Shown: piece after piece, positions 1,416-36,090 of the stretch
Layout of the letters: every line of letters begins with the position of its first letter
How positions within the stretch are numbered: the stretch's first letter is position 1
Assembly (NCBI GenBank): GCA_903913645.1
Contig: CAIWMA010000196.1
Span: 1-36,848, forward strand
From: an uncultured Bacteroidales bacterium
GTDB lineage: Bacteria > Bacteroidota > Bacteroidia > Bacteroidales > UBA4417
Direction of reading: 5' to 3'
Length of the DNA stretch: 36,848 bases
The notes under the pieces: generated by a model
Told to the model about the DNA's origin: nothing
What the model saw: the letters and a program-made list of their open reading frames with translations, nothing else
Databases searched by the model: none
Made by a program: the position numbers and the translations under genes

Positions 1416-1503
1416 GGATGTCGGATTGCGGATGTCGGATTTGGGATTTGAGAACGGAAACTTATAAAACTGAAGCCCAATTCCTAAAACCTAACACCTA
1501 GAT
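1416..1503. repeat. Two heptamer-period arrays flanking the glmM 3' end
   Basis: Bases 1416-1450 are five phased 7-mers, each beginning GGAT (GGATGTC, GGATTGC, GGATGTC, GGATTTG, GGATTTG). Bases 1476-1503 are four more 7-mers of opposite polarity (CCCAATT, CCTAAAA, CCTAACA, CCTAGAT). The last of these contains the glmM stop codon. The two blocks are G-rich and C-rich on the same strand and could partly pair. Confidence 0.75.
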
Positions 1504-2883
1504 CAACGCCTTAATATCCGCAATAATCTTTTCAGCCAATTCCTCAGCCTTAGCTGCTGAAACACTTTCGGCATAAATCCTGATAATTGGTTCAGTATTC
1601 GATTTGCGTAAGTGGACCCATTCGTTGCCGAATTCAATTTTTACTCCATCTATTGTGCTGTTTGGCTGATCTTTATATTTTTCCTGAACTTTCTTTAAAA
1701 TTAGGTCCGTGTCCATTCCCGGCGACAGGGTAATCTTGTTTTTCGAAATCGTATACTCAGGATAGGTTGCTTTTAGTTGCGAACAACTGAGTCCAGTTTT
1801 AGCCAGGTGTGTTAAAAACAATGCAATACCAACAAGTGCATCACGTCCGTAATGCAATTCAGGATAAATAACACCGCCGTTGCCTTCGCCACCAATAATT
1901 GCATGGGTATCCTTCATCATTTTTACAACATTTACCTCACCAACAGCTGATGCAGAATAAGTAAATCCTTTACTTTCAGTTACATCGCGCAAAGCCCGAG
2001 TAGACGACATGTTGGAAACCGTATTGCCAGGAGTATGATTCAGCACATAATCGGCAACAGCAACCAGCGTGTACTCTTCGCCAAACATTTTTCCATCTTC
2101 ACTAACAATAGCGAGGCGATCAACATCCGGATCAACCACAAAGCCGACATGTGCGTTAAAATCAATAACAGTTTTGCTTAATTCACCCAAATGCTCAGGC
2201 AGAGGTTCAGGATTATGCGGGAAAAGGCCGTTTGGCTCACAATACAAATCAAACACTTTTGCTACACCTAACGCTCGCAGAAGTCTAGGGATAACAATGC
2301 CACCAGTAGAATTTACAGCATCAACTGCCACCTTAAAATTTGCCCTTTTTATCGCCTTTATATCTACCAAAGGCAGATCAAGCACCATTTTTATATGTTT
2401 ATCAATAAATGTATTATCGATAGTATAACTGCCAAGATCGCTAACTTTGCAATATTCCACATCCTGCGATTCGGCATTTTCAAGAACTTTAGCACCTGCA
2501 TCGGCATCGAGGAATTCACCTTCTGAATTAAGTAATTTGAGTGCGTTCCATTCACCAGGATTATGGCTCGCCGTTAAAATAATTCCGCCTTGTGCTCTAT
2601 AGTTTGTAACAGCAACTTCAACTGTGGGAGTTGTCGAAAGACCAAGATCGATAACATCGATGCCCATTCCCATCAAAGTGCCGCAAACCAGGCTGTTGAC
2701 CATGGCACCTGAAACGCGTGCGTCTCGGCCAACGATAAGTTTAATTTTACTAGAGGTATTTTCACTGATTATATAAGTAGCATAGCCGGTAACGAATTTT
2801 ACAATATCAGCCGGAGTAAGGTTATTGCCAGGCTTGCCACCGATAGTTCCTCTGATTCCTGAAATACTTTTGATTAAGGTCAT
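1498..2883 (-). CDS. glmM: Phosphoglucosamine mutase (alpha-D-phosphohexomutase family)
   Basis: Interconverts glucosamine-6-phosphate and glucosamine-1-phosphate on the way to UDP-GlcNAc for peptidoglycan and lipid A. The 461 residues match the Bacteroidota form of the family. The catalytic phosphoserine is Ser106 in TASHNPGEWNALK; the metal loop is DPDVDRLAIV near residue 245; the sugar-binding loop GGEGNGGVIYPE lies near 330; the phosphate-binding RKSNTEPIIRIYAES is near the C-terminus. The frame extends to a TTG at 2913, but the promoter element at 2903-2910 lies inside that extension, so the ATG at 2883, which yields the family N-terminus MTLIKSISGIRGTIGG, is the start. A phosphomannomutase role is the main alternative. 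Confidence 0.9.
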   Translation of the reverse strand: MTLIKSISGIRGTIGGKPGNNLTPADIVKFVTGYATYIISENTSSKIKLIVGRDARVSGAMVNSLVCGTLMGMGIDVIDLGLSTTPTVEVAVTNYRAQGGIILTASHNPGEWNALKLLNSEGEFLDADAGAKVLENAESQDVEYCKVSDLGSYTIDNTFIDKHIKMVLDLPLVDIKAIKRANFKVAVDAVNSTGGIVIPRLLRALGVAKVFDLYCEPNGLFPHNPEPLPEHLGELSKTVIDFNAHVGFVVDPDVDRLAIVSEDGKMFGEEYTLVAVADYVLNHTPGNTVSNMSSTRALRDVTESKGFTYSASAVGEVNVVKMMKDTHAIIGGEGNGGVIYPELHYGRDALVGIALFLTHLAKTGLSCSQLKATYPEYTISKNKITLSPGMDTDLILKKVQEKYKDQPNSTIDGVKIEFGNEWVHLRKSNTEPIIRIYAESVSAAKAEELAEKIIADIKALI

Positions 2884-2902
2884 AATTGATGTATTTTTTT
2901 TG

Positions 2903-2910
2903 CAAAGATA
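2903..2910 (-). promoter_or_regulatory. Bacteroidota -7 promoter element for glmM
   Basis: On the minus strand these bases read TATCTTTG, an exact match to the TAnnTTTG element of the Bacteroidota primary sigma factor. It sits 20 bases before the ATG at 2883. The sequence 19 bases upstream is TATG, a weak match to the -33 TTTG box. Confidence 0.6.
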
Positions 2911-2996
2911 CAATTAGCCTGAAACTGAACATAGTCAGAAAATCAAATATTCGGGAAGCTATTGTCAAAGATCAAAAACACAATCCTAAAAATTAT

Positions 2997-3004
2997 TACC
3001 TTTG
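2997..3004 (+). promoter_or_regulatory. -7 promoter element for the TPR gene
   Basis: TACCTTTG is an exact TAnnTTTG match, 25 bases before the ATG at 3030. It is divergent from the glmM promoter, with about 90 bases between the two elements. No good -33 box is visible at the expected distance. Confidence 0.55.
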
Positions 3005-3029
3005 CACAATCAAAATTGAATGAATACCG

Positions 3030-4436
3030 ATGGATAATTACGAAGAAGATAAAGAATACCTGCGCGAACTGCTCGAACGCTTCGAAAGCGTTTCCGGGGA
3101 AGGTGGATATTCCTTTTTCGATAGCGGTGAGCTGGAAGATATAATTTACTTTTATTTTAGTGAATCTGAATTGTTGAAAGCACGCATAGCTATTGACTAT
3201 GCCATCGAACAATTCCCTTCGGAAGTCAGCTTCCAGGTGTTCAAAGCACAATATTACCTCAATAACGGTGAACCCGAAAAAGCACTTGCCCGCCTCAATA
3301 GCCTCGATGCGGTTGATCCGCAGAATCCGGATATTTCGCTGACCCGTGCTACGGTATACAGCACCATGCATAAACATGCCGAAGCTATAAGGGAATACCA
3401 GAAAGCGATCACAAAAGTGGATGAGGACCTGGATGAAATTCATACCAGCATTGCTTTTGAGTACCAGAACCTGAGAGATTATAAAAGAGCAGCAGAGCAT
3501 CTTAAAAAGGCTATTCAACTCAACAGGGACAATGAAAGCCTTTTGTATGAAATTGGGTATTGCTACGAAATGGGCGAAATGAGTGATGATGCAATTGCAT
3601 TTTTTACCAATGAAATTGATAAAAGACCCTATTCATTGGTTGCATGGTATAACCTTGGTATCGCCTACAGCACTATAGAATTATACGAAAAAGCAATAGA
3701 TGCTTTTGATTATTCCATAGCGATTGATCCGACATTTACACCTGCATATTTCAGTAAAGCCCAGTGCTATGAGCAAATGGAGATGTACCAGGAAGCCATA
3801 AATGTTTATAAACACACTTTTGAGCTCGAAAAGCCGGATGCAATGACCAATTACTATATTGGCGATTGTTACGCCAGTATGGAGAAATATGAAACTGCTA
3901 TTGAATTCTACAGGAAATCGATCAGCCTCGAACGTCATTTTTCGGATTCCTGGATGGGAATCGGGCTGTGTTTTGTAGAACTGGGACAAAACAGCGAAGC
4001 CTTGTCACATATGGAACAAGCCATTAAACTTGAGTCGGACAATGCTGAATATTATATTGTACTTGCTGAAACACAACTTGCACTAGGCATGTATAATGAA
4101 ACTGAATTATCCTATCAAAAAGCCAGTGAACTGGAGCCTTACCATGCTGAAATCTGGCTGGATTATTCTGACTTCTACGCCGATATAAAAAAAGATTATA
4201 CCAAAGCACTTGAGATACTTGAAGATGGTATTTATTACCAGGGCGATAACAGTGCCTTGACCTACCGTCGTGTTGCATATTTATTTGATGCAGGTAAACA
4301 TAAAGAGGCTATTCTTGAGCTTTTTATTGCATTAACGCAGGATTACGAAGCTCATACTCAATTGCTCGAATATTCTGAAAAAGCGAGAAACTCGGATGAG
4401 ATTCTGGCTGTGATTGCCTCCTATAAAAACCAATAA
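3030..4436 (+). CDS. Tetratricopeptide repeat protein
   Basis: A 468-residue protein made almost wholly of TPR units. Repeated helix pairs carry the W-LG-Y/A-P signature, for example AWYNLGIAYSTIELYEKAIDAF near residue 210, then AYFSKAQCYEQMEMYQEAI, NYYIGDCYASMEKYETAIEF and SWMGIGLCFVELGQNSEAL at roughly 34-residue spacing. There is no signal peptide or membrane segment, so it is probably a cytoplasmic scaffold. The N-terminus is acidic (MDNYEEDKEYLRELLERFES). Related proteins are common in the phylum, but I know of no assigned role. It is monocistronic as far as can be seen; the next gene is 67 bases downstream after a heptamer array. Confidence 0.88.
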   Translation: MDNYEEDKEYLRELLERFESVSGEGGYSFFDSGELEDIIYFYFSESELLKARIAIDYAIEQFPSEVSFQVFKAQYYLNNGEPEKALARLNSLDAVDPQNPDISLTRATVYSTMHKHAEAIREYQKAITKVDEDLDEIHTSIAFEYQNLRDYKRAAEHLKKAIQLNRDNESLLYEIGYCYEMGEMSDDAIAFFTNEIDKRPYSLVAWYNLGIAYSTIELYEKAIDAFDYSIAIDPTFTPAYFSKAQCYEQMEMYQEAINVYKHTFELEKPDAMTNYYIGDCYASMEKYETAIEFYRKSISLERHFSDSWMGIGLCFVELGQNSEALSHMEQAIKLESDNAEYYIVLAETQLALGMYNETELSYQKASELEPYHAEIWLDYSDFYADIKKDYTKALEILEDGIYYQGDNSALTYRRVAYLFDAGKHKEAILELFIALTQDYEAHTQLLEYSEKARNSDEILAVIASYKNQ

Positions 4437-4464
4437 TTTTCGGGGGAACTTAAGTATCTAAATC

Positions 4465-4499
4465 CCTAAATCCTAACCCACAAACCCTAACCCCCTCAA
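4465..4499. repeat. Heptamer-period array upstream of the DedA gene
   Basis: Five phased 7-mers: CCTAAAT, CCTAACC, CACAAAC, CCTAACC, CCCTCAA. The array ends 4 bases before the ATG at 4504, where a ribosome binding site would normally lie. It resembles telomeric repeats only superficially. Confidence 0.75.
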
Positions 4500-4503
4500 A
4501 AAC

Positions 4504-5130
4504 ATGGGAATCACCGAATGGATCGCTACTACCGCTGTTGCTTTTATTGCAGCCACCTCCTATCCTGGAATATTTTTGCTGATGGTACTCGAAAGCATGG
4601 TTTTCCCGGTTCCAAGTGAAGCGGTGATGCCTTTTGCCGGTTTCCTGATCGTTACCGGGCAGTTTACATTTACAGGCGTTATCATTGCGAGCACTTTAGG
4701 TAGCATTGTTGGTTCACTGGCTTCCTACGCAATGGGATTTTACGGTGGCAAACCATTTATTAAACGGTTTGGCAAATTCCTGTTGCTTGATACACACGAT
4801 CTAGAAATCACCGAACGATTTTTCGCCAAACGTGGAGAATTAACAATCTTTATTTCCCGCTTTATTCCTATCATTCGCCATATGATAAGCATACCGGCTG
4901 GTTTAGGTAAAATGAATATCTGGAAATTTATTGTTTATACAATTTTAGGTGCAGGAATGTGGAATGCATTTTTAGCATATGTAGGCTTTAAGCTCAAAGA
5001 AAACTGGACCGAGGTAATGAAGTACAGCCATACCATCGATATTGTAGTCGTTGGTGTGCTTGGCCTTGCATTTTTATACTATGCCTATAAAGTATATGTG
5101 AATCTTACAAAGAAAAAAACAGCAAGCTGA
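4504..5130 (+). CDS. DedA family (VTT domain) membrane protein
   Basis: A 208-residue inner-membrane protein of the DedA/SNARE-associated family; members act as lipid transporters, including flippases that recycle undecaprenyl phosphate. The family motifs are present: ESMVFPVPSEAVMPFAG near residues 28-44 (the re-entrant loop with acidic and proline residues) and SRFIPIIRHMISIPAGLGKM near 118-137 with the conserved arginines. A C-terminal helix (IDIVVVGVLGLAFLYYAYKV) is followed by a lysine-rich cytoplasmic end. It stops two bases before aroE, so the two genes are probably co-transcribed. Confidence 0.9.
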   Translation: MGITEWIATTAVAFIAATSYPGIFLLMVLESMVFPVPSEAVMPFAGFLIVTGQFTFTGVIIASTLGSIVGSLASYAMGFYGGKPFIKRFGKFLLLDTHDLEITERFFAKRGELTIFISRFIPIIRHMISIPAGLGKMNIWKFIVYTILGAGMWNAFLAYVGFKLKENWTEVMKYSHTIDIVVVGVLGLAFLYYAYKVYVNLTKKKTAS

Positions 5131-5132
5131 TC

Positions 5133-5879
5133 ATGCGGCTATTCGGACTTATTGGTAAACCGTTATCACATTCTTTTTCAGCAAACTATTTCGCTGAGAA
5201 GTTTGAGACCGAAAATATTGCTGACAATGAATACAAACTTTTCCCTTTGGAAGATATCTCTGAAGTTACGTCTCTTATAGAAAATAATCCTGATTTGCAG
5301 GGTTTTAACATCACAATCCCGTACAAGATCTCAATTTTACCATACCTCAATACCATGTTCGATGCTGCGAAATCTGTCGGAGCTGTTAATTGTGTTAAAA
5401 TTGAGAGAAATAAATCCGGAGTTTTACTTACAGGCTATAATACGGATGTTTATGGTTTCAGTGAATCATTGGCTCCGGCATTAAAATCGTATCATAAAAA
5501 CGCACTTGTTCTGGGAACCGGTGGCGCATCCAAAGCCGTTTGTTATACTTTAGATGAACTGGGGATAAAATACACATTAGTTTCGCGCTCAGGGAATGGA
5601 GCATCCATCCTTAACTATTCCCAGCTTACTGATAGAATAATTTATGATAATCTGCTAATTATCAACACATCACCTGTAGGCACCTATCCAGATATGGATA
5701 AATGCCCTGATATTCCTTATCAATTCCTAAGCACGAAGCATTTATTATTCGACCTGATCTATAACCCTGCGGAAACTAAGTTCCTCCGGTTGGGCAGGGA
5801 AGCTGGTGCAACTACATTGAACGGTTCAAAAATGCTTGAACTGCAAGCGGAGAAATCGTGGGAAATCTGGAACAGGTAG
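5133..5879 (+). CDS. aroE: Shikimate dehydrogenase (NADP+)
   Basis: Reduces 3-dehydroshikimate to shikimate, the fourth step towards chorismate. The 248 residues fit the compact AroE form of the phylum. The shikimate-binding serines are in PLSHSFSANYF (Ser12, Ser14) and the catalytic lysine is Lys65 in NITIPYK. GAVNCV and NTDVYGF follow, then the NADP-binding VLGTGGASKAV near residue 125. The C-terminus has the expected GSKMLELQAEKSWEIW helix. The ATG lies two bases after the DedA stop codon, indicating an operon. A heptamer array begins immediately after the stop codon. Confidence 0.95.
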   Translation: MRLFGLIGKPLSHSFSANYFAEKFETENIADNEYKLFPLEDISEVTSLIENNPDLQGFNITIPYKISILPYLNTMFDAAKSVGAVNCVKIERNKSGVLLTGYNTDVYGFSESLAPALKSYHKNALVLGTGGASKAVCYTLDELGIKYTLVSRSGNGASILNYSQLTDRIIYDNLLIINTSPVGTYPDMDKCPDIPYQFLSTKHLLFDLIYNPAETKFLRLGREAGATTLNGSKMLELQAEKSWEIWNR

Positions 5880-5967
5880 AATGTTGGATGTGCAATGTAC
5901 GGTGTCGGTTTTAAATAAGTAAATTTCCCCTTCCCTAAACCCTAATTCCAAAACCCCAAAACCTTTT
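5880..5967. repeat. Two heptamer-period arrays between aroE and the thiamine-binding gene
   Basis: Starting one base after the aroE stop, 5880-5914 reads AATGTTG, GATGTGC, AATGTAC, GGTGTCG, GTTTTAA, with a TG at a fixed phase. Bases 5933-5967 read CCCTAAA, CCCTAAT, TCCAAAA, CCCCAAA, ACCTTTT and end 4 bases before the next ATG. Together they fill nearly the whole 92-base intergenic space. Confidence 0.7.
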
Positions 5968-5971
5968 TCGC

Positions 5972-6283
5972 ATGTCTGTCCTGATGCAATTTGTGATGTT
6001 CCCAACCGATAAGGGAGAAAGTGCCAGTCCTTATGTAAGCCGCGTTATAGCTATGATCCGTGAAAGCGGTTTTATATACCAACTCAATGCTATGGGAACC
6101 ATTATAGAAACTGAAACCCTCGAAGAAGCCCAGTCCGTGGTTTCCAAAGCATATTCGTTGTTACAAGCGGATTGCCACCGGGTTTATTGCACGGTAACTT
6201 TCGACATCCGCGACGGCGCAATTGGCCGCATGCAACAGAAAGTGGCTTCGATAGAAGAGAAAATCGGCCCGGTAAATCACTGA
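5972..6283 (+). CDS. MTH1187/YqgV family thiamine-binding protein
   Basis: A 103-residue protein of the UPF0045 family, which has a ferredoxin-like fold and in characterised members binds thiamine or its pyrimidine. Typical features are the opening strand VLMQFVMFPTDKGESASPYV, the middle segment YQLNAMGTIIETETLEEA with the conserved glutamates, and the strand HRVYCTVTFDIRDG followed by a C-terminal helix with EEKIGP. Its last 7 bases overlap the end of the convergent DUF4342 gene. No thiamine biosynthesis gene is adjacent, so its physiological role here is open. Confidence 0.85.
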   Translation: MSVLMQFVMFPTDKGESASPYVSRVIAMIRESGFIYQLNAMGTIIETETLEEAQSVVSKAYSLLQADCHRVYCTVTFDIRDGAIGRMQQKVASIEEKIGPVNH

Positions 6284-6516
6284 TCCCGGCGGATCACCTC
6301 GATTGTAAAATCGGCTGCCAGGGCTGCCAATGCGCCAATTGCAGCAAATACCGGTAAAATTACTGCACCAATAACACCTATGGTTACAGGAATTTCCAGG
6401 TAAACTTTCCCTTCGTGATCTTTGATAATAATCCGGTTTACATTGCCTTCGGCTATAATTTCACGGATTTTTTTTAACAGGTCTTCGCCTTTAACTTTAA
6501 ATTCGGATGAGTTCAT
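6277..6516 (-). CDS. DUF4342 domain protein
   Basis: A 79-residue protein matching the DUF4342 pattern: an N-terminal helix (EFKVKGEDLLKKIREIIAEG), two beta strands (VNRIIIKDHEGKVYLEIPV), then a single hydrophobic glycine/alanine-rich segment (VIGAVILPVFAAIGALAALAA) ending in a charged tail. The middle part suggests a short ligand- or protein-binding domain tethered to the membrane. Function is unknown. It overlaps the stop region of the convergent thiamine-binding gene by 7 bases, so the two mRNAs have complementary 3' ends. Confidence 0.8.
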   Translation of the reverse strand: MNSSEFKVKGEDLLKKIREIIAEGNVNRIIIKDHEGKVYLEIPVTIGVIGAVILPVFAAIGALAALAADFTIEVIRRDQ

Positions 6517-6577
6517 TTTCGTTCTGTTTTATGATAATCTGACGAGATTTTGATGATTTGGTTACATATAATAAAAA

Positions 6578-6612
6578 GGATTTAGTGGTTAGGATTTGGA
6601 GGTTAGAGATGA
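6578..6612. repeat. Heptamer-period array upstream of znuA
   Basis: Phased 7-mers GGATTTA, GTGGTTA, GGATTTG, GAGGTTA, GAGATGA. The G-rich strand faces the same way as znuA, opposite to the C-rich arrays before the DedA and thiamine-binding genes. Confidence 0.65.
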
Positions 6613-6714
6613 ACAATTCATAATCAAAGCTAATTCCGAGATTTCAATCACTTTATTGAAGAGGATGAATTTCAGGAAACCGGAATTCAATTTCCAGTTA
6701 ACACCCATAATTTG

Positions 6715-6722
6715 TACTTTTG
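6715..6722 (+). promoter_or_regulatory. -7 promoter element placed at the znuA start codon
   Basis: TACTTTTG is an exact TAnnTTTG match. Only five bases separate its final G (6722) from the ATG at 6728, which puts the expected transcription start at or next to the first codon and implies a leaderless mRNA. The -33 position shows only TTTC. No zinc-uptake operator palindrome was recognised. Confidence 0.6.
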
Positions 6723-6727
6723 CACAC

Positions 6728-7606: not shown

Positions 7607-7618
7607 TAATATACTCCC

Positions 7619-8419: not shown

Positions 8420-8420
8420 G

Positions 8421-15085: not shown

Positions 15086-15104
15086 GATGATTGAATTTAT
15101 GGCT

Positions 15105-15112
15105 CAAAGATA
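15105..15112 (-). promoter_or_regulatory. -7 promoter element for pepE
   Basis: Minus-strand TATCTTTG, an exact TAnnTTTG match, giving an expected untranslated leader of about 15 bases before the ATG at 15085. Confidence 0.55.
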
Positions 15113-15240
15113 GGCGTTTTGAGAGAATTAGATTTAGAGAAAACAAAGTGGACATTTAATAGTTGCATAATGAAAATTCAGAGAGTTTGAGTTGAAGTAG
15201 TTGCCATTAGGTGGTCATTCGGTTGTTGTTTAGGACAAGC

Positions 15241-15268
15241 GACTTGTAATTAGGGACTTGGGACTTTG
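15241..15268. repeat. Heptamer-period array upstream of the DMT exporter
   Basis: Phased GACTTGT, AATTAGG, GACTTGG, GACTTTG. The preceding 50 bases (from about 15185) keep a weaker 7-base phase. A TACATTTG promoter-like element follows at 15277-15284, 19 bases before the ATG at 15303. Confidence 0.6.
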
Positions 15269-15302
15269 AATTTTAGTACATTTGTTGATTCTTTAAAATC
15301 TT

Positions 15303-18505: not shown

Positions 18506-18664
18506 ATACAGCTCTTTTGACAAACACTGTAAATGAGACAAATTCAAGCAATTATAGTAATAATGCTATTCCCGGGTTAATAGTATTCAAACAGCTGGTT
18601 CAGCAGGTTAAGTTAAATGATTAAAACGAATAATTAATGCACATCAACTCTTCTTAGTGACTCG

Positions 18665-18699
18665 TTCACAATTCGTTATTCACTTTTCTCTATTCACTC
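18665..18699. repeat. Heptamer-period array overlapping a permease 3' end
   Basis: Phased TTCACAA, TTCGTTA, TTCACTT, TTCTCTA, TTCACTC. The fourth unit contains the permease stop codon (minus strand TAG at 18692-18690) and the fifth is coding, so the array reaches into the last codons. Confidence 0.65.
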
Positions 18700-20141
18700 T
18701 TTTGCCCCCACTTCTTCCAGATATAGAACACAGGTAATCCCATAAGCACAATTATTAATCCCGGCCAGGTATAATTAGGTTTGTAGATTAGCAGGACAAA
18801 CATTATAAGAGAAGCAGCTGCCATATAAATCACCGGGACAATTGGATAGCCGAAAGTCTTATACGGACGTTCCACGTCAGGTTGTTTTTTGCGAAGTGCA
18901 AATATGCCGGCGATTGTGAGCACATAAAAAATCAAAACTGCAAATACAACATAATCGAGCAGGTTAGAATAAGTTCCTGACAAACAAAGCAGCGAAGCCC
19001 AAACAGCCTGAACTTTAAGCCCGGCGGCAGGCACAGCTTTATCGTTCAATTTCCCTGCACTTTTGAAGAAAAGATTATCTTTAGCCATGGCATAATAAAC
19101 CCTGGCACCGGAAAGTATTAGTCCATTGTTGCAACCAAACGTTGATATCACAACAAAAGCTGCCATTAATAAAGCGGCCATTGAACCGAATAATCCGAAC
19201 ATTGAAGCAGATCCAAGGCGGTCATTAGCTGCATATTGAATTCCTTTTTCAAAAACACCCGCTCCATCTGCTACTCCACGAAGGGGAAGGGCATTCAGGT
19301 ATACAAAATTAGCGAGTATATAAAGTATGGTAACAAGTGTAACTCCTGTAACCAGGCTTAACGGAATGTTCCGTTTCGGATTTTTTACTTCGGCTGCGGC
19401 AAATGTGATATTATTCCAGGAATCAGATGAAAACAGCGAGCCTACCATAGCTACTCCGATTGCAGCAATCAACGCCCAGCCACTCAAGATCGAACCATCC
19501 ATGGCAACAGGTTTCCAGAAATAGCTGCTATTCATTGCCACAGCTTCCGGGTTGCCGGCAAAAAACAATCCAAGTACAATAAATCCAATCAACAAAGCCA
19601 CTTTGATAATTGTAAATACATTCTGCACCCATTTACCGTTGCGGATTCCCTGCAAATTATTTAACGTAAGCACCAGGATCATTGTTATTGCTAACAAATG
19701 AACAGAACTGATTTTCAGTATTCCAAGGTTGAGCAAAATATTAGTTTCGGAAAACCAGGGAATAAGCACACCGGCAAATTTGGCGAAAGCCATGGCAACT
19801 GCAGCAATTGTACCGGTTTGAATTACTGTAAAAAATGTCCAGCCATACAGAAAGCCAGCTAATGGATTGAATGCTTCGCGAAGATAAACGTATTGCCCTC
19901 CGGCTTTCGGCATCATGGAAGCCAGCTCGCCATAACTAAGTGCGGCAAAAATGGTCATAACACCGGTGATTATCCAAACTATAAGCATCCATCCCGGAGC
20001 TCCCACATTGCGTGCAATATCAGCACTTACAATAAAAATACCCGACCCGATCATTGAACCAGCTACCAGTGCGGTGGAATCAAGAAATCCAAGGCTTTTT
20101 TTGAATTCAGTTTTCGTCAATTTCGAATCTACACTTTCCAT
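18690..20141 (-). CDS. APC superfamily amino acid permease (LAT-like)
   Basis: A 483-residue, twelve-helix transporter of the amino acid-polyamine-organocation superfamily. Helix 1 carries the unwound substrate motif ALVAGSMIGSGIFIVSADIAR, followed by GAPGWMLIVWIITGVMTIFAALSYGELASMMPKAGGQYVYLREA, characteristic of the L-type/SteT-like branch. AAEVKNPKRNIPLSL marks the helix 6-7 region. It probably exchanges neutral amino acids. It is followed in the same direction by a second permease from another branch, 45 bases away. Confidence 0.9.
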   Translation of the reverse strand: MESVDSKLTKTEFKKSLGFLDSTALVAGSMIGSGIFIVSADIARNVGAPGWMLIVWIITGVMTIFAALSYGELASMMPKAGGQYVYLREAFNPLAGFLYGWTFFTVIQTGTIAAVAMAFAKFAGVLIPWFSETNILLNLGILKISSVHLLAITMILVLTLNNLQGIRNGKWVQNVFTIIKVALLIGFIVLGLFFAGNPEAVAMNSSYFWKPVAMDGSILSGWALIAAIGVAMVGSLFSSDSWNNITFAAAEVKNPKRNIPLSLVTGVTLVTILYILANFVYLNALPLRGVADGAGVFEKGIQYAANDRLGSASMFGLFGSMAALLMAAFVVISTFGCNNGLILSGARVYYAMAKDNLFFKSAGKLNDKAVPAAGLKVQAVWASLLCLSGTYSNLLDYVVFAVLIFYVLTIAGIFALRKKQPDVERPYKTFGYPIVPVIYMAAASLIMFVLLIYKPNYTWPGLIIVLMGLPVFYIWKKWGQKSE

Positions 20142-23926: not shown

Positions 23927-23957
23927 TGCTCAACGTTCTTTGAAAATTATTAGGATT

Positions 23958-24165
23958 AAAACCCGCGTTAATTCAATCCGTTTGGAAACTCAACATATTT
24001 ACAATCGGGCTAAGCTATTGAAATAACAGGACAGGCCTTACCTTATACCTCCGCGTATAAGGATTCTCTACGGGGAACATTGGAAGTCCGACGATTTCAG
24101 GCAGCCTAAACTTGTCGTTTTTGGGGTTTCCCAAAATGCATGAATTAACTGCGGGTTTTTTCTTT
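23958..24165 (+). ncRNA. ssrS: 6S RNA
   Basis: A gene-free 268-base gap between zapA and rny holds a structured RNA of about 205 bases. Bases 23958-23975 (AAAACCCGCGTTAATTCA) pair with 24141-24159 (TGAATTAACTGCGGGTTTT) over 18 pairs with one bulged base. The stem is followed by a T-run (to 24165), so it also serves as terminator. Inside are a hairpin CCTTATAC/GTATAAGG (24041-24062) and TTTTGGG/CCCAAAA (24118-24135), with a large open middle. A long closing stem, open bulge and position after zapA are the marks of 6S RNA, which binds RNA polymerase holoenzyme in stationary phase. I did not test it against a covariance model. Confidence 0.82.
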
Positions 24166-24194
24166 TATCTTCAAGCTATACCTTACCCGGTTAT

Positions 24195-25787: not shown

Positions 25788-25804
25788 TTGAATACAATTA
25801 CAAG

Positions 25805-25842
25805 AAAGGAGTTCTTACACAAAGGGCTCCTTTTTTGTTTTT
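25805..25842 (+). terminator. Intrinsic terminator of rny
   Basis: AAAGGAGTTC (25805-25814) pairs with GGGCTCCTTT (25824-25833), ten pairs including two G-T, around a nine-base loop. The T-rich tail TTTTTTGTTTTT overlaps and follows the stem. Confidence 0.8.
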
Positions 25843-25893
25843 GAATAAGTGTTAATGCTGATTTTATGATTTGTAAATCTCATTCTTGATTTA

Positions 25894-25928
25894 ATCCGAA
25901 ATCCAACATCCGAAATCCGACATTTTTC
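25894..25928. repeat. Heptamer-period array upstream of the YciB-NUDIX gene
   Basis: The clearest array: ATCCGAA, ATCCAAC, ATCCGAA, ATCCGAC, then ATTTTTC, all in strict 7-base phase and ending 5 bases before the ATG at 25934. Confidence 0.8.
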
Positions 25929-25933
25929 AATTT

Positions 25934-28237: not shown

Positions 28238-28248
28238 AATGCAACCAA

Positions 28249-29625: not shown

Positions 29626-29642
29626 AGGTGAGTGTGGAAAAT

Positions 29643-29803
29643 GGTTATTGGTTATTGGAAAAAAGTTTCAGAGTTTCAAGGTTTCAAGTTCCGGCACGGT
29701 GAAGGCCCTAATTCAAAAAGAGTAAAAAACATAGTGGTTTCAGAATTGGCACCTATCCCACAATTTTACCATTCTCTATTTCCTATTCCCCTTATTCATA
29801 TCC
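29643..29803. repeat. Heptamer- and octamer-period arrays before the DUF3820 gene
   Basis: GGTTATT, GGTTATT, GGAAAAA (29643-29663) are phased 7-mers. They are followed by an 8-base period (AGTTTCAG, AGTTTCAA, GGTTTCAA; 29664-29687). A second array at 29769-29803 reads CCATTCT, CTATTTC, CTATTCC, CCTTATT, CATATCC and includes the stop and last eight codons of the adjacent hydrolase gene (minus strand). Confidence 0.6.
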
Positions 29804-30369
29804 AGGTATTCCTCAGTACTAATAACCTTTGCGTAGGCTTTAAGTGTTGCCAGGGCTGCTAACTGAACATCTTCGGCTTGTACAGTTTTACCGTCAAAAG
29901 TTTGGTTTTTGGCAGCGCAGGCATCCTGAATTACGGTGCATTCGAAACCATAATCAGAAGCAGCACGTGTGGCGGCTTCCAGGCACATATTCGTCTGCAT
30001 GCCGCAAAGTACAAGCTTCTTTATATCATTTTTGTTCAGGAAGTCCAGCAAATCTGTGTGTAAGAAGCTGTTGACTTCATTTTTTACAATTATTTTTTCG
30101 CCGGCCAGGGGAGCTACATTTGAATGTATTGCAGCACCTTGTCCGTCGCCATGTTTTATATGAATTATCATTTGGTTCGCTTCCCGAGAATGGATCAGAA
30201 GTTTCTGCGCATTTAAACTGGCAGGAACCGGGTTTACCAGTTCCGACGATCCACCAGCAAAGTAGAAATTCTGAATATCAATAATCAACAGCGCAGTTTT
30301 GGGCATAGGATTTTGAGCATGTGTCACGATCGAAATTATAAAGCTTAGAATAAAAAGTAACTTTTTCAT
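29776..30369 (-). CDS. Exported isochorismatase-fold cysteine hydrolase
   Basis: A 197-residue protein with a signal peptide (KKLLFILSFIISIVTHAQ) followed by a complete isochorismatase/nicotinamidase fold. The catalytic triad is Asp31 (LLIIDIQNFYF), Lys96 (IIVKNEVNSF) and Cys129 (LCGMQTNMCLEAATRAA), and the cis-peptide region before Cys is normal. Most members are cytoplasmic, so export is unusual. The substrate is unknown; family activities include nicotinamide, ureidoacrylate and isochorismate hydrolysis. Its C-terminal codons lie in a heptamer array. Confidence 0.87.
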   Translation of the reverse strand: MKKLLFILSFIISIVTHAQNPMPKTALLIIDIQNFYFAGGSSELVNPVPASLNAQKLLIHSREANQMIIHIKHGDGQGAAIHSNVAPLAGEKIIVKNEVNSFLHTDLLDFLNKNDIKKLVLCGMQTNMCLEAATRAASDYGFECTVIQDACAAKNQTFDGKTVQAEDVQLAALATLKAYAKVISTEEYLDMNKGNRK

Positions 30370-30756: not shown

Positions 30757-31674
30757 ATGAAAACATCAATCTTAGTATCAAGTTTCGCAGCCCTTTGCCT
30801 CCTTTTAACCTTTGCAGAAGCACCAAAACGCCACAATGATGAAATCAGCAATGCCACGTTGGTCAGCAATTTCTACTACATACCTTCTAACCTTACCTTT
30901 GCTGCACCTGCTGAAAATATATCAGCAAACCCGAAAGAGTACACTGCTCCAAAAAACAGTGTAAAAAAAGTAAAACTGACTGAAGACTTCAGTTACCTGA
31001 AATTTAATGTTTCTGATTATTCAGATAACAATGAAATAAATACTGAAGTTGACGTTGAAAATTCATTGGAATCCCTGAGGTTTGATGCAGCTGATTATAC
31101 TGAAAACACTCAGATGACTACGACTGATGCCATTGAATTACCCGAAAACGAATTTCCAAACCTGGAGTTTGATGTAACCGGGTATACTGAAAACAGTGAA
31201 ATGACTTCACAAGATGCTATTGAATTACCTGTAAACGAACTCGCCAAATTGAAATTCGATGTAAATCAATATATTGAAAACACTGAGATGACTTCTGCCG
31301 ATGCAATAGAATTACGTGTTAATGAGTTCGCAAAACTGAAGTTTGATGTAACTCAATACACCGAAAACCTGGATATGACTTCAACTGATGCCATTGAATT
31401 ACCGGTAAATGAGTTCGCCAAATTGAAGTTTGATATAAATGAATACACTGAAAATACTGAGATGACTTCACCAGACGCAATAGAATTACCTGTAAACGAG
31501 TTCGCAAAACTAAAATTTGACGTAACAAAATATACCAGTACCGATGAAACAAATTCAGGTGAAATTACAGAACTACCTGTAGATGAATACAGTTACCTTA
31601 AATTTGATGTAAATAAATATGCTGCACAAAGCAACTTAAACTCTGACAATTTCGGCGAAATGCCAATAAATTAA
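30757..31674 (+). CDS. Secreted protein of 29-residue tandem repeats, function unknown
   Basis: A 305-residue protein with a signal peptide (MKTSILVSSFAALCLLLTFA, cleavage probably after Ala22). A unique segment (about 23-73) is followed by eight tandem units. The LKFDV core recurs at residues 81, 107, 136, 165, 194, 223, 252 and 281, a strict 29-residue period after the second unit. The unit consensus is LPVNEFAKLKFDV, then xxYTENTEMTSxDAIE. It is strongly acidic, with alternating hydrophobic residues in each core suggesting stacked beta strands. No cysteine lies in the repeats, and no catalytic motif or sorting domain is seen. I do not recognise the family. It is followed by a strong terminator, so it is a single-gene unit. 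Confidence 0.82.
   Translation: MKTSILVSSFAALCLLLTFAEAPKRHNDEISNATLVSNFYYIPSNLTFAAPAENISANPKEYTAPKNSVKKVKLTEDFSYLKFNVSDYSDNNEINTEVDVENSLESLRFDAADYTENTQMTTTDAIELPENEFPNLEFDVTGYTENSEMTSQDAIELPVNELAKLKFDVNQYIENTEMTSADAIELRVNEFAKLKFDVTQYTENLDMTSTDAIELPVNEFAKLKFDINEYTENTEMTSPDAIELPVNEFAKLKFDVTKYTSTDETNSGEITELPVDEYSYLKFDVNKYAAQSNLNSDNFGEMPIN
30976..31662 (+). repeat. Coding tandem repeat of about 87 bases, eight units
   Basis: DNA for the 29-residue units of the secreted protein. Units 3-5 are nearly identical as protein yet differ at many synonymous third positions (for example GTAAACGAACTC, GTTAATGAGTTC and GTAAATGAGTTC in equivalent places). The first step is 78 bases, the others 87. Confidence 0.85.
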
Positions 31675-31724
31675 AATAACAAAAACTCGGGATAGCTATA
31701 AACACAACTGCCCCATTCTGAAAC

Positions 31725-31762
31725 ACAAGAGGTTACCTTACAGGTAGCCTCTTGTATTTTTA
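31725..31762 (+). terminator. Intrinsic terminator of the repeat-protein gene
   Basis: ACAAGAGGTTACC (31725-31737) pairs with GGTAGCCTCTTGT (31743-31755) over 13 positions with one G-T pair, loop of five, followed by ATTTTTATT. Confidence 0.85.
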
Positions 31763-31919
31763 TTTATTCCTGGTTCTGATTATTTCTAATTCAAAACCAA
31801 ACATCAAAAGGTTGAAACCGCCTTCAGGCAACTCAAGGGAAATATAACACGCCTTTTTTGATTACCTTTACAATGCATTACAATTTCCTTTTCACCAAAA
31901 CAGATTGGGAGCCACCAAC

Positions 31920-33857
31920 ATGAAAAGATGTATTATAAAGATTCTCAAATCCAATATATATATTCTGACGTACTTGCTACTTCCTTTATCTCTTGCTGCC
32001 CAAACCTTTGATTTTGGATGGAGCGGAACCGAACTGGTACCAGCTTCCACTTTCCTGAATCCCGCTAAATGGACCACCAATGTCCCAAATGCAGCGTTAG
32101 GTGACAAGAGTATTGTTACTGCCAGTGCCGACACCTTAAAGCTGAACTGGACCTTTGGAACAGGAAATCGCGGTAAATGGTCGCAGTGCTACCTGTATTT
32201 ATCAACACCGATTTCTCTGGCAAACTATGATCTTTTCAGTTTTAACCTGAAAGGTATGCCCAACAACGGAACTGTAGGTTTTGAATTAAAATTTGAAGAT
32301 GGCAGCCACCAGGCCGTTGTACGCTGGGAAGGACTGGCCGGGCTCAATCGCTGGGCAAATAAAATATCTGCGGCGAAAAAGCAATTCGAAAATTCAGCAG
32401 TGATGAACTGGAGCAGCGTAAAGGTGATCTCACTTTCTGTTTATGCACAGGCTTCGGATCAATATGTTAACACGGATCAAGGTTCGCTAAGTATTTACAA
32501 CCTGGCTGGCACCAGTATGGCTGGCTGGACACGGGCCGGTTCGCAGGAATTTATTAATCCCGCCGATTTTGTCACTATCAAAGAAAATGCGATTCAGGCT
32601 ATTGTAAACAGGCAAAAATCCACAGGGCTGCTCACAACCTGGGCTGAGGATGGCACTTCGTGGTTGTACGGGCAAGGACTAGCTTTGAAAGCACTAAGTA
32701 ATGAAGGCAATTGGAACCAGGGAGCACCAAATAATTCAGCAGCCATTTCGGCCGAAAAGCTTGCATTGTTTCTGATCAACCACCAGCAACCGGAAGGCTA
32801 CTGGCCGCGAGCGTGGAATTCTTTAACAGGTGCAATTACAGTTCTGAGAGAAGCCGATGGCACCATTTGGATGGGCGACTTTCCATGGATCATAACAGGT
32901 TTACAGAGTTATTATAAAAAAAGCGGAGATGAGCGGGTTAAACCGGCTTTGCAAAAAGCAATGGCGTTACTCAAAAACCTTATCCTGTCTGATGGTAAAT
33001 TCATGACGGTAAATCCTGCAAACGGCACTACGTACGAGGTTGCCAGTTGCGAAGCTTATGCAGCTGCCATACTAAGTCTCTACGAATCAGGCGAAATTGT
33101 GCTTGCTGATAAGATGTACAATTATATCAGCATTAATGGCTGGGATTCTGCGTTGCACTGCTGGCGAGAAGCCACTACTTCGGACCGCATAGTTCTGTTT
33201 GCCAATACATGGATGTCGTATTACCTTTTCCAAAAAGGAGAAACTCAAAAAGGATTGGATGCGATGTCACTCACTGGCAAAGTACTTTATACAAATGGGA
33301 ACGGAGAGTTACACGGCATGGATGGCATTGTTCCGCTGGCAGTCTGGTACGAGGGTACACTTTCTTATATTTCTGCCGGTGGCCCGGGAAGCATTTCGTT
33401 GTTCGAAGAAATCCGTACCCATATTCACACCGACGGCATGGTTTCGCATTATAACGAAAGCCTGGGAGGAATTGGTGGTATCTGGGCTGAGAATTGGCAC
33501 AGTCTCGATGGCACATCCTGGCTCTATTTTACAACTTCCGGCAAATCGCCTTTTGATGTGTTGGAAGGCATTCCGGTTGGATTAAATCTCCTGCCGACCA
33601 AGCAGGGCACAAATCATTTCAGTATTACAAATTCACAGACCGGTGAACTCAAAATAACACCACTCATACCTATACCGAAAGCTATCAATGTTCGTGTGTT
33701 CCAATCAGACGGGCGTTTGCTTGCCGAAAGAAAAGTTCCTGCCAATTCTGGAGAATCAACCATACCTATTCCTCTTAACAGCAGGGGTGGGAAAGTTGTA
33801 TTAGTTCAGATTATTGGCTTTGAAGAGATGGAGAGCTACCCTGTTTACATAAACTAA
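31920..33857 (+). CDS. Secreted (alpha/alpha)-toroid glycosidase-like protein
   Basis: A 645-residue exported protein. A signal peptide (ILTYLLLPLSLAAQ) is followed by a beta-sandwich segment (about 30-200) resembling a galactose-binding/CBM module (YDLFSFNLKGMPNNGTVGFELKFEDGSHQAVVRWEG). Residues about 210-555 are a helical region with repeated aromatic and acidic loops (WAEDGTSWLYGQGLALKAL, EGYWPRAWNSLTGA, DGTIWMGDFPWIITGL, ENWHSLDGTSWLYF), like six-hairpin glycosidases. A final beta domain (about 570-645, AINVRVFQSDGRLLAERKVP) recalls type IX secretion sorting domains. The exact family is not recognised; catalytic acids cannot be assigned. The ATG at 31920 is used instead of the TTG at 31905. 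The neighbouring convergent GH35 gene supports a role in glycan breakdown. Confidence 0.75.
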   Translation: MKRCIIKILKSNIYILTYLLLPLSLAAQTFDFGWSGTELVPASTFLNPAKWTTNVPNAALGDKSIVTASADTLKLNWTFGTGNRGKWSQCYLYLSTPISLANYDLFSFNLKGMPNNGTVGFELKFEDGSHQAVVRWEGLAGLNRWANKISAAKKQFENSAVMNWSSVKVISLSVYAQASDQYVNTDQGSLSIYNLAGTSMAGWTRAGSQEFINPADFVTIKENAIQAIVNRQKSTGLLTTWAEDGTSWLYGQGLALKALSNEGNWNQGAPNNSAAISAEKLALFLINHQQPEGYWPRAWNSLTGAITVLREADGTIWMGDFPWIITGLQSYYKKSGDERVKPALQKAMALLKNLILSDGKFMTVNPANGTTYEVASCEAYAAAILSLYESGEIVLADKMYNYISINGWDSALHCWREATTSDRIVLFANTWMSYYLFQKGETQKGLDAMSLTGKVLYTNGNGELHGMDGIVPLAVWYEGTLSYISAGGPGSISLFEEIRTHIHTDGMVSHYNESLGGIGGIWAENWHSLDGTSWLYFTTSGKSPFDVLEGIPVGLNLLPTKQGTNHFSITNSQTGELKITPLIPIPKAINVRVFQSDGRLLAERKVPANSGESTIPIPLNSRGGKVVLVQIIGFEEMESYPVYIN

Positions 33858-33872
33858 CTTCGCTAATCAATG

Positions 33873-33948
33873 ACCCTGCCGCAAGCGGACGGGGTATGAA
33901 AGGCCCAACGCACAAGGCGAAAAAGGTATCGCCGCAAGCGGTGGGGAA
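33873..33948. repeat. Two CCGCAAGCGG palindromic elements
   Basis: CCGCAAGCGG occurs at 33879-33888 and again at 33932-33941. The first lies in a longer hairpin, ACCCTG-CCGC-AA-GCGG-A-CGGGGT (33873-33895), with one bulge. The second has GGCGA/TCGCC (33916-33920 and 33929-33933 approximately) beside it. No T-run follows in either direction, so they are not ordinary terminators. They lie between two convergent glycan genes. Confidence 0.55.
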
Positions 33949-34053
33949 TTTAACCCTAAAAAGATTAAATCATCAACAAAAAAACTTTTGATCCTTTAAA
34001 GACGAAAATTGTGGTCCAGAATTTGTGAAATTGTGATCTGAAATTAAAAGGAA

Positions 34054-35913
34054 CTATTTCAGGTGTAGTTCATCCAGAATAGGAGTTGCAAGGCTGCTGA
34101 TTTCCGAATGCAAAACATCGTTCAATTGTTCAAAAATAACAATTTCATTTTCTCCTTTTTTAAGCCAGACGCCGGGAACAAATAAGGTTTGCTGTGGTCC
34201 CAAATGCCAGTAGCGGCCTAGGTTATGTCCATTGATAAAAACAATGCCTTTACCCCAGCTACGCATATCCAGGAAAGTGTCCCCGGTTTGTTTCAATAAA
34301 AATTTCGCGGAATAAAATGTCGGCCTTCCTTTAATGTTTTTACCAGTGTATGAGCTAAGATTAGGTTTTACATCCAAAGGGAATTTGTACATCTGCCAGT
34401 TCCCTGAAATTTCACTTCCATTAATCACAACAGGACTGATAATACCTTTGAGGTTATGTATAATTTCGGAACCATAATTAATGCGACCCATATTTTCGAC
34501 CAGAATTTCGAGCGTTGCATTAACCGGAATATCAATATCCATTGAATAATTTTTAAAATAGCGGTTGAGTTCGCCCACTTTCTCGCCATTTACATATACT
34601 ATTGCAAAATCCCTCAATCCATTTATTTCGAGTTTTCCTTTTACAGGTAGCTGAAACTTCCTGGAATACAAAACATAACCATAGCCTTGATTTAAATCTT
34701 CGAACGTTAACAGCTGATCATTTACTATAGGTTTGATTTTCGCCTTAAGTGCAGAAATATCAACAGCTTTTGTAAACTTAATAGAAGGTATGACGATTAC
34801 CGGAAAGGCAGCAGGTATTTCAGGAATTGTGGCACTCACATACTTTTTGAGTTCATCACGGATTGCGTGATATTTGGGTGTGGCCCAGCCTGCCTCGCTA
34901 ATGGGAGCATCGTAATCGTAACTTGTGATATCCGGCTGTATATCATGATTTTTATCGTAGTTGGCTCCGCTCGAAAATCCAAAATTAGTACCTCCATGAA
35001 CCATGTAATAATTAAATGAAACTCCCGAATCAAGGTACTTTCTCATCTGGTATACAACCGTTTCAACCGAAACTTTCTCAAAAGGCTCAGCCCAATGATC
35101 GAGCCAGCCTGGGTAAAATTCAGCCACCATATATGGCCCTTTGTTGTCGTGAAACTGATTTACAACCTTCTTCAGCTTATCTACATCATCTTCGCCATTG
35201 GCCGTCGGCATGGCACCTTCGATGGCTCCGCCTTCGATTAACCAGCTTCCATCGGAAGTAAATAATGGCACCTCCACACCCGCTTTCAACAATTGCTCTT
35301 TTATGGCACGGCTGTATATTTTATGCTCCGCCAAAGGAATATCCTTCCGTTGTGCCACATACGATCCGAATTCGTTCTCCGCCTGTATCATAATTATCGG
35401 CCCGCCTCTTGTAACCTGCAAATCCTTAACCTGCTCAACAAGCTTGGCTATATACACATTGCACGAATCCAGAAATGGCTTATTGTTGGTTCGGATAACT
35501 AAATCCTTGTTTTTTTGCAGCCACCAGGGGTAACCGCCAAATTCCCATTCAGCGCAGGCATAAGGTCCGGGGCGCAAAATCACCATCAGCCCTTCGTCTC
35601 CTGCCAACTTAATAAATTCCCGGATATTACGGTCACCTGTAGTAAAATCCCATACGCCGGGCGCTGTTTCATGGAAATTCCAGAAAACATAAGTAGCCAC
35701 AGCATTCAGGCCCATCGCTTTTATCATCTGCAGGCGTTGTTTCCAGTATTCATGAGGAACACGTGCAAAATGCATTTCACCGCTGTGGATTTTTACGGGC
35801 TTGCCATCGTACATGAATTCACCATCACTGATTGCGAAGGAATGGTTGGATTGGGCATTCACTGATGAGAAAATGCATGGAATTAGTAGAAGGAAAAGAA
35901 TCCATTTTTTCAT
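34054..35913 (-). CDS. Beta-galactosidase, glycoside hydrolase family 35
   Basis: A 619-residue exported GH35 enzyme that removes terminal beta-galactose. A signal peptide (KKWILFLLLIPCIFSSVNA) is followed by the TIM barrel with IHSGEMHFARVPHEYW, RPGPYACAEWEFGGYPWWL, the acid/base Glu181 in IQAENEFGSY and the nucleophile Glu265 in MVAEFYPGWLDHW, then YYMVHGGTNFGF. The C-terminal part (about 390-600) has the jelly-roll domains with FINGHNLGRYWHLGPQQTLFVPGVWLKKGENEIVIFE. A TATTTTTA element (35940-35947, minus strand) resembles a -7 box. It is convergent with the toroid protein; no SusC/SusD pair is present in the window. Confidence 0.95.
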   Translation of the reverse strand: MKKWILFLLLIPCIFSSVNAQSNHSFAISDGEFMYDGKPVKIHSGEMHFARVPHEYWKQRLQMIKAMGLNAVATYVFWNFHETAPGVWDFTTGDRNIREFIKLAGDEGLMVILRPGPYACAEWEFGGYPWWLQKNKDLVIRTNNKPFLDSCNVYIAKLVEQVKDLQVTRGGPIIMIQAENEFGSYVAQRKDIPLAEHKIYSRAIKEQLLKAGVEVPLFTSDGSWLIEGGAIEGAMPTANGEDDVDKLKKVVNQFHDNKGPYMVAEFYPGWLDHWAEPFEKVSVETVVYQMRKYLDSGVSFNYYMVHGGTNFGFSSGANYDKNHDIQPDITSYDYDAPISEAGWATPKYHAIRDELKKYVSATIPEIPAAFPVIVIPSIKFTKAVDISALKAKIKPIVNDQLLTFEDLNQGYGYVLYSRKFQLPVKGKLEINGLRDFAIVYVNGEKVGELNRYFKNYSMDIDIPVNATLEILVENMGRINYGSEIIHNLKGIISPVVINGSEISGNWQMYKFPLDVKPNLSSYTGKNIKGRPTFYSAKFLLKQTGDTFLDMRSWGKGIVFINGHNLGRYWHLGPQQTLFVPGVWLKKGENEIVIFEQLNDVLHSEISSLATPILDELHLK

Positions 35914-35994
35914 AGGGTTGCACTTTTATTAAACTGGTGTAAAAATAGAAGATATTTAGAAACATTTAAAATTGCTTTTATATAGATACAAAAA

Positions 35995-36090
35995 GGGCGA
36001 GGGGCGAATGGGCGAATGTCTAAAAAGCCCTAAATTATACGCTTCGATTGAGATTTCTTTCATCTTCGGTCCTCCGTCTTCCAACCTCTA
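35995..36090. repeat. Heptamer-period arrays upstream of cysC
   Basis: GGGCGAG, GGGCGAAT, GGGCGAAT (35995-36017) and TCTTCGG, TCCTCCG, TCTTCCA, ACCTCTA (36063-36090). The first is a 7/8-base period, the second a strict 7. The 299-base gap between the GH35 gene and cysC otherwise contains only promoter elements at its two ends. Confidence 0.6.

Follow-up and report, generated by a model that had tools for sequence, protein, structure and literature searches.

Degenerate 7-8-bp tandem arrays and their orientation at gene edges in a lake Bacteroidales bacterium

The stretch of DNA analyzed here, contig C196 (36,848 nt; hereafter the window), belongs to a metagenome-assembled genome (MAG) of an uncultured lake Bacteroidales bacterium (5.71 Mb in 593 contigs; G000), whose nearest named relatives are lake 'uncultured Bacteroidales bacterium' MAGs and one 'Bacteroidales bacterium' MAG (best phosphoglucosamine mutase identity, 93%). 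Genes were called with a simple open reading frame (ORF) rule (at least 240 nt), and at twelve sites close to their boundaries the window carries short, degenerate tandem arrays with a seven-base period (heptad arrays, Table 1), which were the subject of an original prediction made by inspection of the sequence. Each stretch was scored for lag-7 matches against dinucleotide shuffles of its own surroundings (without correction of the P values, and for sites chosen by the reader who proposed them), and P ≤ 0.02 was obtained for 11 of the 12, the exception being 6578-6612 (P = 0.135). A stricter detector, requiring at least 15 matches in 21 positions at lag 7 or 8, passed five sites, i.e., 1412-1458, 1473-1500, 5933-5960, 18671-18698, and 25891-25924. 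The placement described in the prediction was also confirmed: the arrays at 4465-4499, 5933-5967, and 25894-25928 end 4-5 bases before start codons (ATG at 4504, 5972, and 25934, respectively), while in three others (1476-1503, 18665-18699, and 29769-29803) the array extends across the stop codon of a minus-strand ORF, whose end lies at 1498, 18690, and 29776, respectively.

The 31 spacers of the window (4.5 kb) are by themselves a weak test (z of 2.0 at lag 7, 3.1 at lag 6, and 3.6 at lag 14), and therefore further stretches of the genome were sampled, which proved decisive. The first G000 sample comprised 53 loci not selected for repeats (420 kb, including 44 kb of intergenic DNA) and the enlarged one 577 kb (62.8 kb intergenic), whereas 366 kb came from a second species of the genus (G003); the window itself, together with 7 and 3 loci from contigs picked by a repeat-pattern match, was left out of the statistics of both G000 samples. 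In the enlarged sample, intergenic DNA gave z values of 12.8 at lag 7, 8.5 at lag 8, 4.3 at lag 6, 10.0 at lag 14, and 8.3 at lag 21, with no excess at lags 5, 9, and 10. In the first sample, lags 9, 10, and 11 were near zero and lag 5 gave z of -1.3, while the values for lags 7, 8, and 6 shifted with the shuffle set (11.5, 7.2, and 5.6 or 9.3, 9.5, and 6.4). The second species gave 14.4 at lag 7 and 14.9 at lag 14, with lags 3, 4, 9, and 10 mildly raised (2.7-3.6). Coding DNA, for which no shuffle control was used, was flat near lag 7 (0.2531 versus 0.2521 at lag 8 and 0.2535 at lag 13).

The heptad arrays are thus real and genome-wide. In G000, 43 period-7 and 24 period-8 arrays were detected versus 3.2 and 1.8 in shuffles, and in G003 49 and 9 versus 1.3 and 1.5, with a weaker excess at periods 6 and 9-12 in G003 (period 10: 10 versus 1.9) and at period 11 in G000 (9 versus 2.4). 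Within these two genomes, a period-7/8 array was present in 78 of 466 two-gene spacers, and 105 arrays lay in those spacers versus 37 that shared more than 15 nt with called ORFs. The anticipated lag-7 excess was therefore found over lags 5 and 9 and over shuffles, in intergenic and not in coding DNA, but lags 6 and 8 are raised as well, and the period described as strict and constant is too strongly worded, as period-8 arrays are common. Chance was ruled out as a source by the shuffles of both G000 samples and of G003, codon periodicity by the coding DNA, which shows lags 3, 6, and 9 without a lag-7 peak, and sampling bias by the exclusion of the repeat-matched loci, after which the signal stays. 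An assembly artefact was rejected too, since similar arrays occur in MAG loci from several named projects.

The most surprising feature of these arrays is their orientation. Arrays lying within 15 nt of a gene end and having |G-C| of at least 3 were counted as edge arrays (arrays with |G-C| below 3 or with N were not counted, nor were edges that lack a neighbouring gene), and in 66 of the 75 the G-rich strand is the one leading out of the gene in the 5'->3' direction (p = 8e-12, arrays in orthologous spacers of related genomes not being independent). This outward-G rule holds at stops (22:3 on the left of the spacer and 21:3 on the right) and at starts (10:1 and 13:2, likewise), in G000 and G003 each alone (23:5 and 20:4), and for both periods (period 7, 23:4 at stops and 9:2 at starts; period 8, 11:1 and 3:1); at other periods arrays are few (3:1 for periods 4-6 and 2:4 for periods 9-12). 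Taking all distances together, G-rich arrays lie nearer the 5' neighbour in 53 of 71 cases and C-rich arrays nearer the 3' neighbour in 45 of 62, a tendency seen in all four gene arrangements (31/44, 41/52, 14/20, and 12/16). There is no net rule at 16-50 nt (11:13), where stop edges are reversed (2:12), and beyond 50 nt the ratio is 25:17.

Two possible sources of the rule were rejected. After masking of the stop triplets as a possible source of G, 42:7 remains at stop edges, and a gene-calling bias at starts was dismissed because ATG-only calls keep the orientation (33:5 at stops and 13:2 at starts; 33:6 and 13:4 with 80 nt of padding into the genes). Where an ORF takes up an array within its first 120 nt, the array is likewise usually C-rich (11 versus 4). 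Array-free start edges already tend towards outward-G (skew 0.216), which supports a selective sieve at starts; at array-free stop edges the skew is -0.001 in the first 15 nt and 0.054 in the next 25. As a possible function, stops in all three frames after the gene were counted (15/37 versus 92/366, p = 0.051). In 72 loci of more distant Bacteroidota, 17 of 27 arrays were outward-G, which is not significant, and within the phylum the rule is therefore not shown beyond the genus. Heptad arrays at or through stop codons were also noticed in six of the distant loci (L029, L030, L035, L064, L079, and L081), where several units contain a stop triplet, e.g., ATAGACC and AACTGAG; outward-G is followed in L029, L030, and L035, and not in L064 and L079.

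The composition and units of the arrays were surveyed in a genus set of 170 (126 of period 7 and 44 of period 8), 15 arrays with |G-C| below 3 being dropped for this purpose. The median array has 5.6 units and the longest 26.4, and either G or C is scarce on each strand. The share of the minor of G and C has a median of 0.18, versus 0.40 in control spacer stretches, and that of the minor of A and T is 0.36 versus 0.43; the strand bias that had been called purine or pyrimidine thus exists, but it is chiefly a matter of G versus C. In the 37 arrays of at least 49 bp, unit identity falls with distance (0.756, 0.742, 0.694, and 0.653 at one to four units), as expected from stepwise local duplication. 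The 170 arrays have 108 distinct consensus units. Among the 126 period-7 arrays, 70 units are distinct versus 109 (sd 3.0) when letters are permuted within units, a control that does not preserve dinucleotides, and the same is seen per genome (31 distinct units in 41 arrays versus 38.2 in G000; 30 in 50 versus 47.5 in G003). The recurring units indicate that the motifs are not random draws site by site. The earlier statement that motifs differ between sites is consequently correct as to their variety but overlooks a recurrence beyond composition, which weakens the argument built on it against the dispersal of one copied element.

Among the relatives, one G003 contig aligns in order with most of the window (aligned segments are about 73-86% identical), and the likeness of array families in orthologous spacers was judged by eye. 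By this measure the same or a related family is present in the window, G003, and G090 in the spacers at 4437, 5880, 15086, 18548, and 29726, while in four other spacers (1340, 2914, 25788, and 35914) one or more of the three lack the array or have a different one; in several spacers the position of the array is kept and the sequence and length of its units are changed. At individual sites, the family of 4465..4499 was matched at the orthologous place in G003 and G090, that of 5933..5967 in G003, G090, and L012, and arrays related or similar to those at 15241..15268 and 29769..29803 were found in G003 and G090; at 36063..36090 the G003 spacer has only about 40 nt versus 217 in the window. On the 3' side of glmM, the repeats of the relatives mostly differ from those of the window and from one another, with a GGTTATTGG-like array common to L014 and L015 (in this comparison L009 is the same contig as G003 and L016 ends there). 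The array 1412..1458, located between the 3' end of glmM and the next minus-strand ORF, is an exception to outward-G by its nearest gene end (a stop, 39 nt off), and 15241..15268, G-rich on the coding strand, is also contrary to the rule. In the G003 and G090 spacers orthologous to window 25788-25933 (L209, about 18650-18780), an inverted repeat around AAGGATTTAAGAACAAGGATTAACGA is seen by eye at the place of the window's heptad array. The spacer 15086-15302 and the same spacer in L209 and L249/L250 hold a minisatellite with a unit of about 60-70 nt (GTCATTCAATTGTTGA...), of which, by eye, G003 and G090 have several copies and the window roughly one.

Table 1. Heptad arrays of the window, with the lag-7 P value of each.
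Position	Strand	Array and location	Support
1412..1458	+	GGATGTC/GGATTGC/GGATTTG, period 7, G-rich on +	span 1416-1450 P < 0.0005; passes stricter detector
1473..1503	-	period 7, G-rich on coding (-) strand, overlaps glmM stop codon	reader's span P < 0.0005; passes stricter detector
4465..4499	+	CCTAAAT/CCTAACC, C-rich, 4 nt before ATG 4504	P = 0.005; below stricter detector
5880..5914	+	degenerate, G-rich, immediately 3' of stop codon 5877-5879	P = 0.0045; below stricter detector
5933..5967	+	CCCTAAA-like, C-rich, 4 nt before ATG 5972	P = 0.0015; passes stricter detector
6578..6612	+	GGATTTA/GGTTAGG-like, between divergent genes; least supported of the twelve	P = 0.135; similar stretch in G003
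15241..15268	+	GGGACTT-like, about 35 nt before ATG 15303	P = 0.02; below stricter detector
18665..18699	-	GTGAATA-like, G-rich on -, through stop codon of ORF 18690-20141	P = 0.0025; passes stricter detector
25891..25928	+	ATCCGAA/ATCCAAC, C-rich, 5 nt before ATG 25934	P = 0.002; passes stricter detector
29643..29663	+	TGGTTAT, 2.4 units by Tandem Repeats Finder	P = 0.008
29769..29803	-	GAAATAG-like, G-rich on -, through stop codon of ORF 29776-30369	P = 0.02
36063..36090	.	short, TCTTCCG-like, between divergent ORFs	P = 0.004

The lag-7 signal is patchy within the genus, with z values of 10.8 in G003, 9.1 in G001, 3.7 in G011, and 2.7 (weak) in G004. In the order-level relatives G013-G020 it ranged from -1.7 to 2.1 in 1.7-5.2 kb of spacers each, G015 showing z of 4.2 at lag 8. 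The distant loci gave, when pooled, 9.4 at lag 7 (L017-L044) and 4.6 at lag 7 with 6.0, 5.9, and 6.8 at lags 4, 6, and 8 (L045-L088), homologous low-complexity arrays being included in both pools.

As for the genes beside the arrays, a Pfam scan of 10 adjacent ORFs matched 9 to a family (window 1055-1339 had no match), i.e., pirin, TPR, VTT domain, shikimate dehydrogenase N-terminal, thiamine-binding protein, ZnuA, EamA, amino acid permease, and NUDIX (with IspA). At the gathering threshold, no Rfam family was found anywhere in the window. The spacer 23927-24194 (23988-24129) is almost unchanged by eye in the window, G003, and G090; 23945-24180 folds as a long closed rod (z of -4.49), and 23988-24129 matches 6S-Flavo RNA with 28.8 bits (E 0.022), far below the gathering score of 85, so that it is possibly a divergent 6S RNA. 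Moreover, an 87/174-bp tandem repeat (5.2 copies of 87) is located at 31075-31526, inside the ORF 30757-31674.

In the prediction the arrays were said to have no known name, yet heptameric intergenic repeats have already been published as simple sequence repeats (PMC4692102, PMC4679880), for which, as stated in PMC4692102, no agreed mechanism or role has emerged after years of notice. Rehm et al. (2015) described the motifs GGGAATC in Xanthomonas and GGGGA(C/T)T in Nostoc, mostly intergenic (PMC4692102). According to that account, the mean distance of the Xanthomonas repeats is 28 nt to the 5' ORF and 160 nt to the next one; in both genera the heptamers stand near the 5' ORF in either orientation, some overlapping stops, and the distance is mostly 0-50 bp, the coding strand carrying those that follow stops and the non-coding strand those that precede starts. 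Convergent pairs are many in Xanthomonas and few in Nostoc, and between Xanthomonas species the place of the heptamers is conserved while length and sequence vary (PMC4692102). The arrays of the genus analyzed here share this geometry, both in the outward-G count within 15 nt and in the nearness of G-rich arrays to the 5' neighbour. Unlike the one G-tract motif per genome studied there (PMC4692102), they have many units, often with few GG, and two periods, and they belong to a different phylum and mostly lack quadruplex potential. Pairs of GGGANTC or GGGGA(C/T)T were found in none of 250 loci.

TAACTGA heptamers were described by MacGregor (2015) in Beggiatoaceae, Cyanobacteria, and five Bacteroidetes, as intergenic repeats of which many lie just before start codons in one orientation to them, with 'other heptamer direct repeats' beside them in Gramella and Aequorivita (PMC4679880). 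The present arrays are likewise intergenic heptamers with many members just before start codons, to which they keep one orientation. The TAACTGA system, however, is one exact motif without G/C skew, and the description in PMC4679880 apparently reports no rule for both gene ends; an exact TAACTGA tandem pair was found in none of the 250 loci and, with 2 mismatches allowed, not in the window. Mrazek (2007), as cited in PMC4692102 and PMC4679880, noted a heptamer excess in many genomes and suggested a seven-base polymerase contact for the length of seven. With respect to long simple sequence repeats (LSSRs), i.e., runs of tandem 5-11-nt units that are longer than expected in the genome (PMC4679880, PMC4692102), the excess of the G000 arrays over shuffles (43 versus 3.2 and 24 versus 1.8) agrees with that class. 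Exact repetition, which we read into the LSSR definition, is not observed, as adjacent-unit identity is 0.756, although some relatives have exact arrays. As a class, the arrays also lack the stable paired arms of repetitive extragenic palindromic (REP) sequences and bacterial interspersed mosaic elements (BIMEs), clear complementarity being seen in 5 of 17 pairs and folding being not above that of other spacers.

Cyanobacterial short tandemly repeated repetitive (STRR) heptanucleotides were reportedly described by Mazel et al. (1990). Three of them are listed for Calothrix (PMC4692102), and the P6b stem of the Nostoc tRNA-Leu intron contains the degenerate heptads TDNGATT and NNTGAGT with gains and losses of 7 or 14 nt (PMC4476775). 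More than one 7-nt motif and degenerate units are common to these heptads and to our arrays, but the Nostoc intron repeats belong to one structured RNA (PMC4476775), whereas the arrays occur at many gene boundaries without raised folding stability. Both the heptamer class and the outward-G geometry had already been reported (PMC4692102), and the arrays add to them a variant with many different units.

On balance, the arrays are probably simple-sequence repeats with degenerate units of 7-8 bp, a Bacteroidales form of the heptamers known from Xanthomonas, cyanobacteria, and Beggiatoaceae, born by slippage, confined to spacers, and filtered at gene edges. Short seeds in spacers would grow about 7-8 nt at a time, by repeated slippage of strands or by tandem duplication, their units would drift by point mutation, and renewed duplication would re-homogenise them; expansion into genes would be removed, since 7 and 8 are not multiples of three. 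Gene edges would tolerate or produce one orientation only, that with few C and many G on the strand running 5'->3' out of the gene, and at start codons selection for a G-poor, open 5' leader is a plausible cause. A local repeat-making process such as slippage, as originally proposed, fits both the decay of unit identity and the concentration of arrays in spacers, and the 7-nt indel steps published for Cyanothece (PMC4679880) and Nostoc (PMC4476775) count in its favour. The contact every seven bases, proposed as its alternative, fits more poorly, given that period-8 arrays coexist with those of period 7. Slippage or tandem duplication in spacers accounts for the period, the decay, and the place of the arrays, and not by itself for their orientation.

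Several observations weigh against this reading. Ordinary slippage predicts neither the peak at 7-8 nt, nor the orientation rule, nor the recurring vocabulary of units. The persistence, by eye, of array families at several sites between species with about 73-86% identity in aligned segments (G003) suggests maintenance rather than pure decay, and the genus member G006 shows no lag-7 excess (z of 0.3 in 4.1 kb of spacers). At stop codons, moreover, nothing found accounts for the orientation and no selective cause is evident, the skew of -0.001 at array-free stop edges meaning that a general compositional sieve cannot explain 43:6.

The persistence of families also bears on the strongest of the rival explanations, in which the arrays would be maintained regulatory sites, where an RNA- or DNA-binding protein contacts successive units of 7-8 nt in leaders and trailers, as proposed for the TAACTGA repeats. 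Arrays do abut start codons, the CCTAAAC-like ones before ATG 4504 and 5972 keep their family and place in the window, G003, and G090 by eye (the latter also in L012), and translational regulators were proposed for similar repeats (PMC4679880). A single contacting protein is difficult to reconcile with 108 consensus units in 170 arrays and with two coexisting periods, and arrays also lie 3' of stops and between convergent genes and are missing or altered in several orthologous spacers, which makes a maintained site an unlikely, though still the next best, explanation.

Pairing of a G-rich with a C-rich arm in each spacer, forming BIME-like elements or terminator hairpins, appears less probable still. 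G-rich arrays do precede C-rich ones in most opposite pairs (11 of 12 where the genes are co-oriented, 2 of 3 where they converge, and 2 of 2 where they diverge); arm complementarity is higher within a spacer than after swapping (8.5 versus 6.4, p = 0.013, for 17 pairs, some sharing a spacer), and convergent repeat pairs are known in Xanthomonas (PMC4692102). This excess is nevertheless driven by a few strong pairs (a score of at least 11 in just 5 of the 17), and many spacers have a single array. Furthermore, median fold z values of array-containing spacers are not better than those of array-free ones, whether genes are co-oriented (-0.20 versus -1.03; 47 and 30 spacers), convergent (-1.74 versus -2.74; 10 and 30), or divergent (-0.08 versus -0.15; 10 and 30), and 5880-5971 folds no better than its shuffles (z of 1.48). 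Hairpin formation is a minority property of the arrays.

The same G-to-C order, whatever the direction of the genes, would follow from a motif-independent process at DNA ends, which we regard as improbable, and its specific form, in which C-poor heptads are added to 3' ends at double-strand breaks in spacers and then joined as scars, is more doubtful again. Extension of both 3' ends of a break would give the geometry seen in the outward-G count (66 of 75), which is similar for starts and stops and for the two sides. On the other hand, the rule is absent at 16-50 nt and not significant in other Bacteroidota (17/27), and the period of 7 or 8 stays unexplained. The probability assigned to the DNA-end reading is low because no enzyme or template was identified (no search for one was made) and no purity gradient was found between the gene-proximal and distal halves of the arrays (0.726 versus 0.722, p = 0.33, n = 63). 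If it were true, the geometry in Xanthomonas and Nostoc (PMC4692102) would share this single origin, in which G-quadruplexes would have only an incidental part. The least credible explanation is that of G-quadruplex elements, put forward for the GGGAATC repeats, since four GG runs with loops of 1-7 nt stand on one strand in 54 of the 170 arrays but the GGG form in only 9, and the orientation holds equally in edge arrays with few GG pairs (23/27 within 15 nt).

The wider bearing of the arrays lies in their orientation. Many different units in one genus obey a rule earlier reported for single G-tract heptamers in two other phyla, and since the rule includes units unlikely to form quadruplexes, it suggests a cause linked with the gene edge rather than with quadruplexes; it is, moreover, a rule that is testable in any genome.

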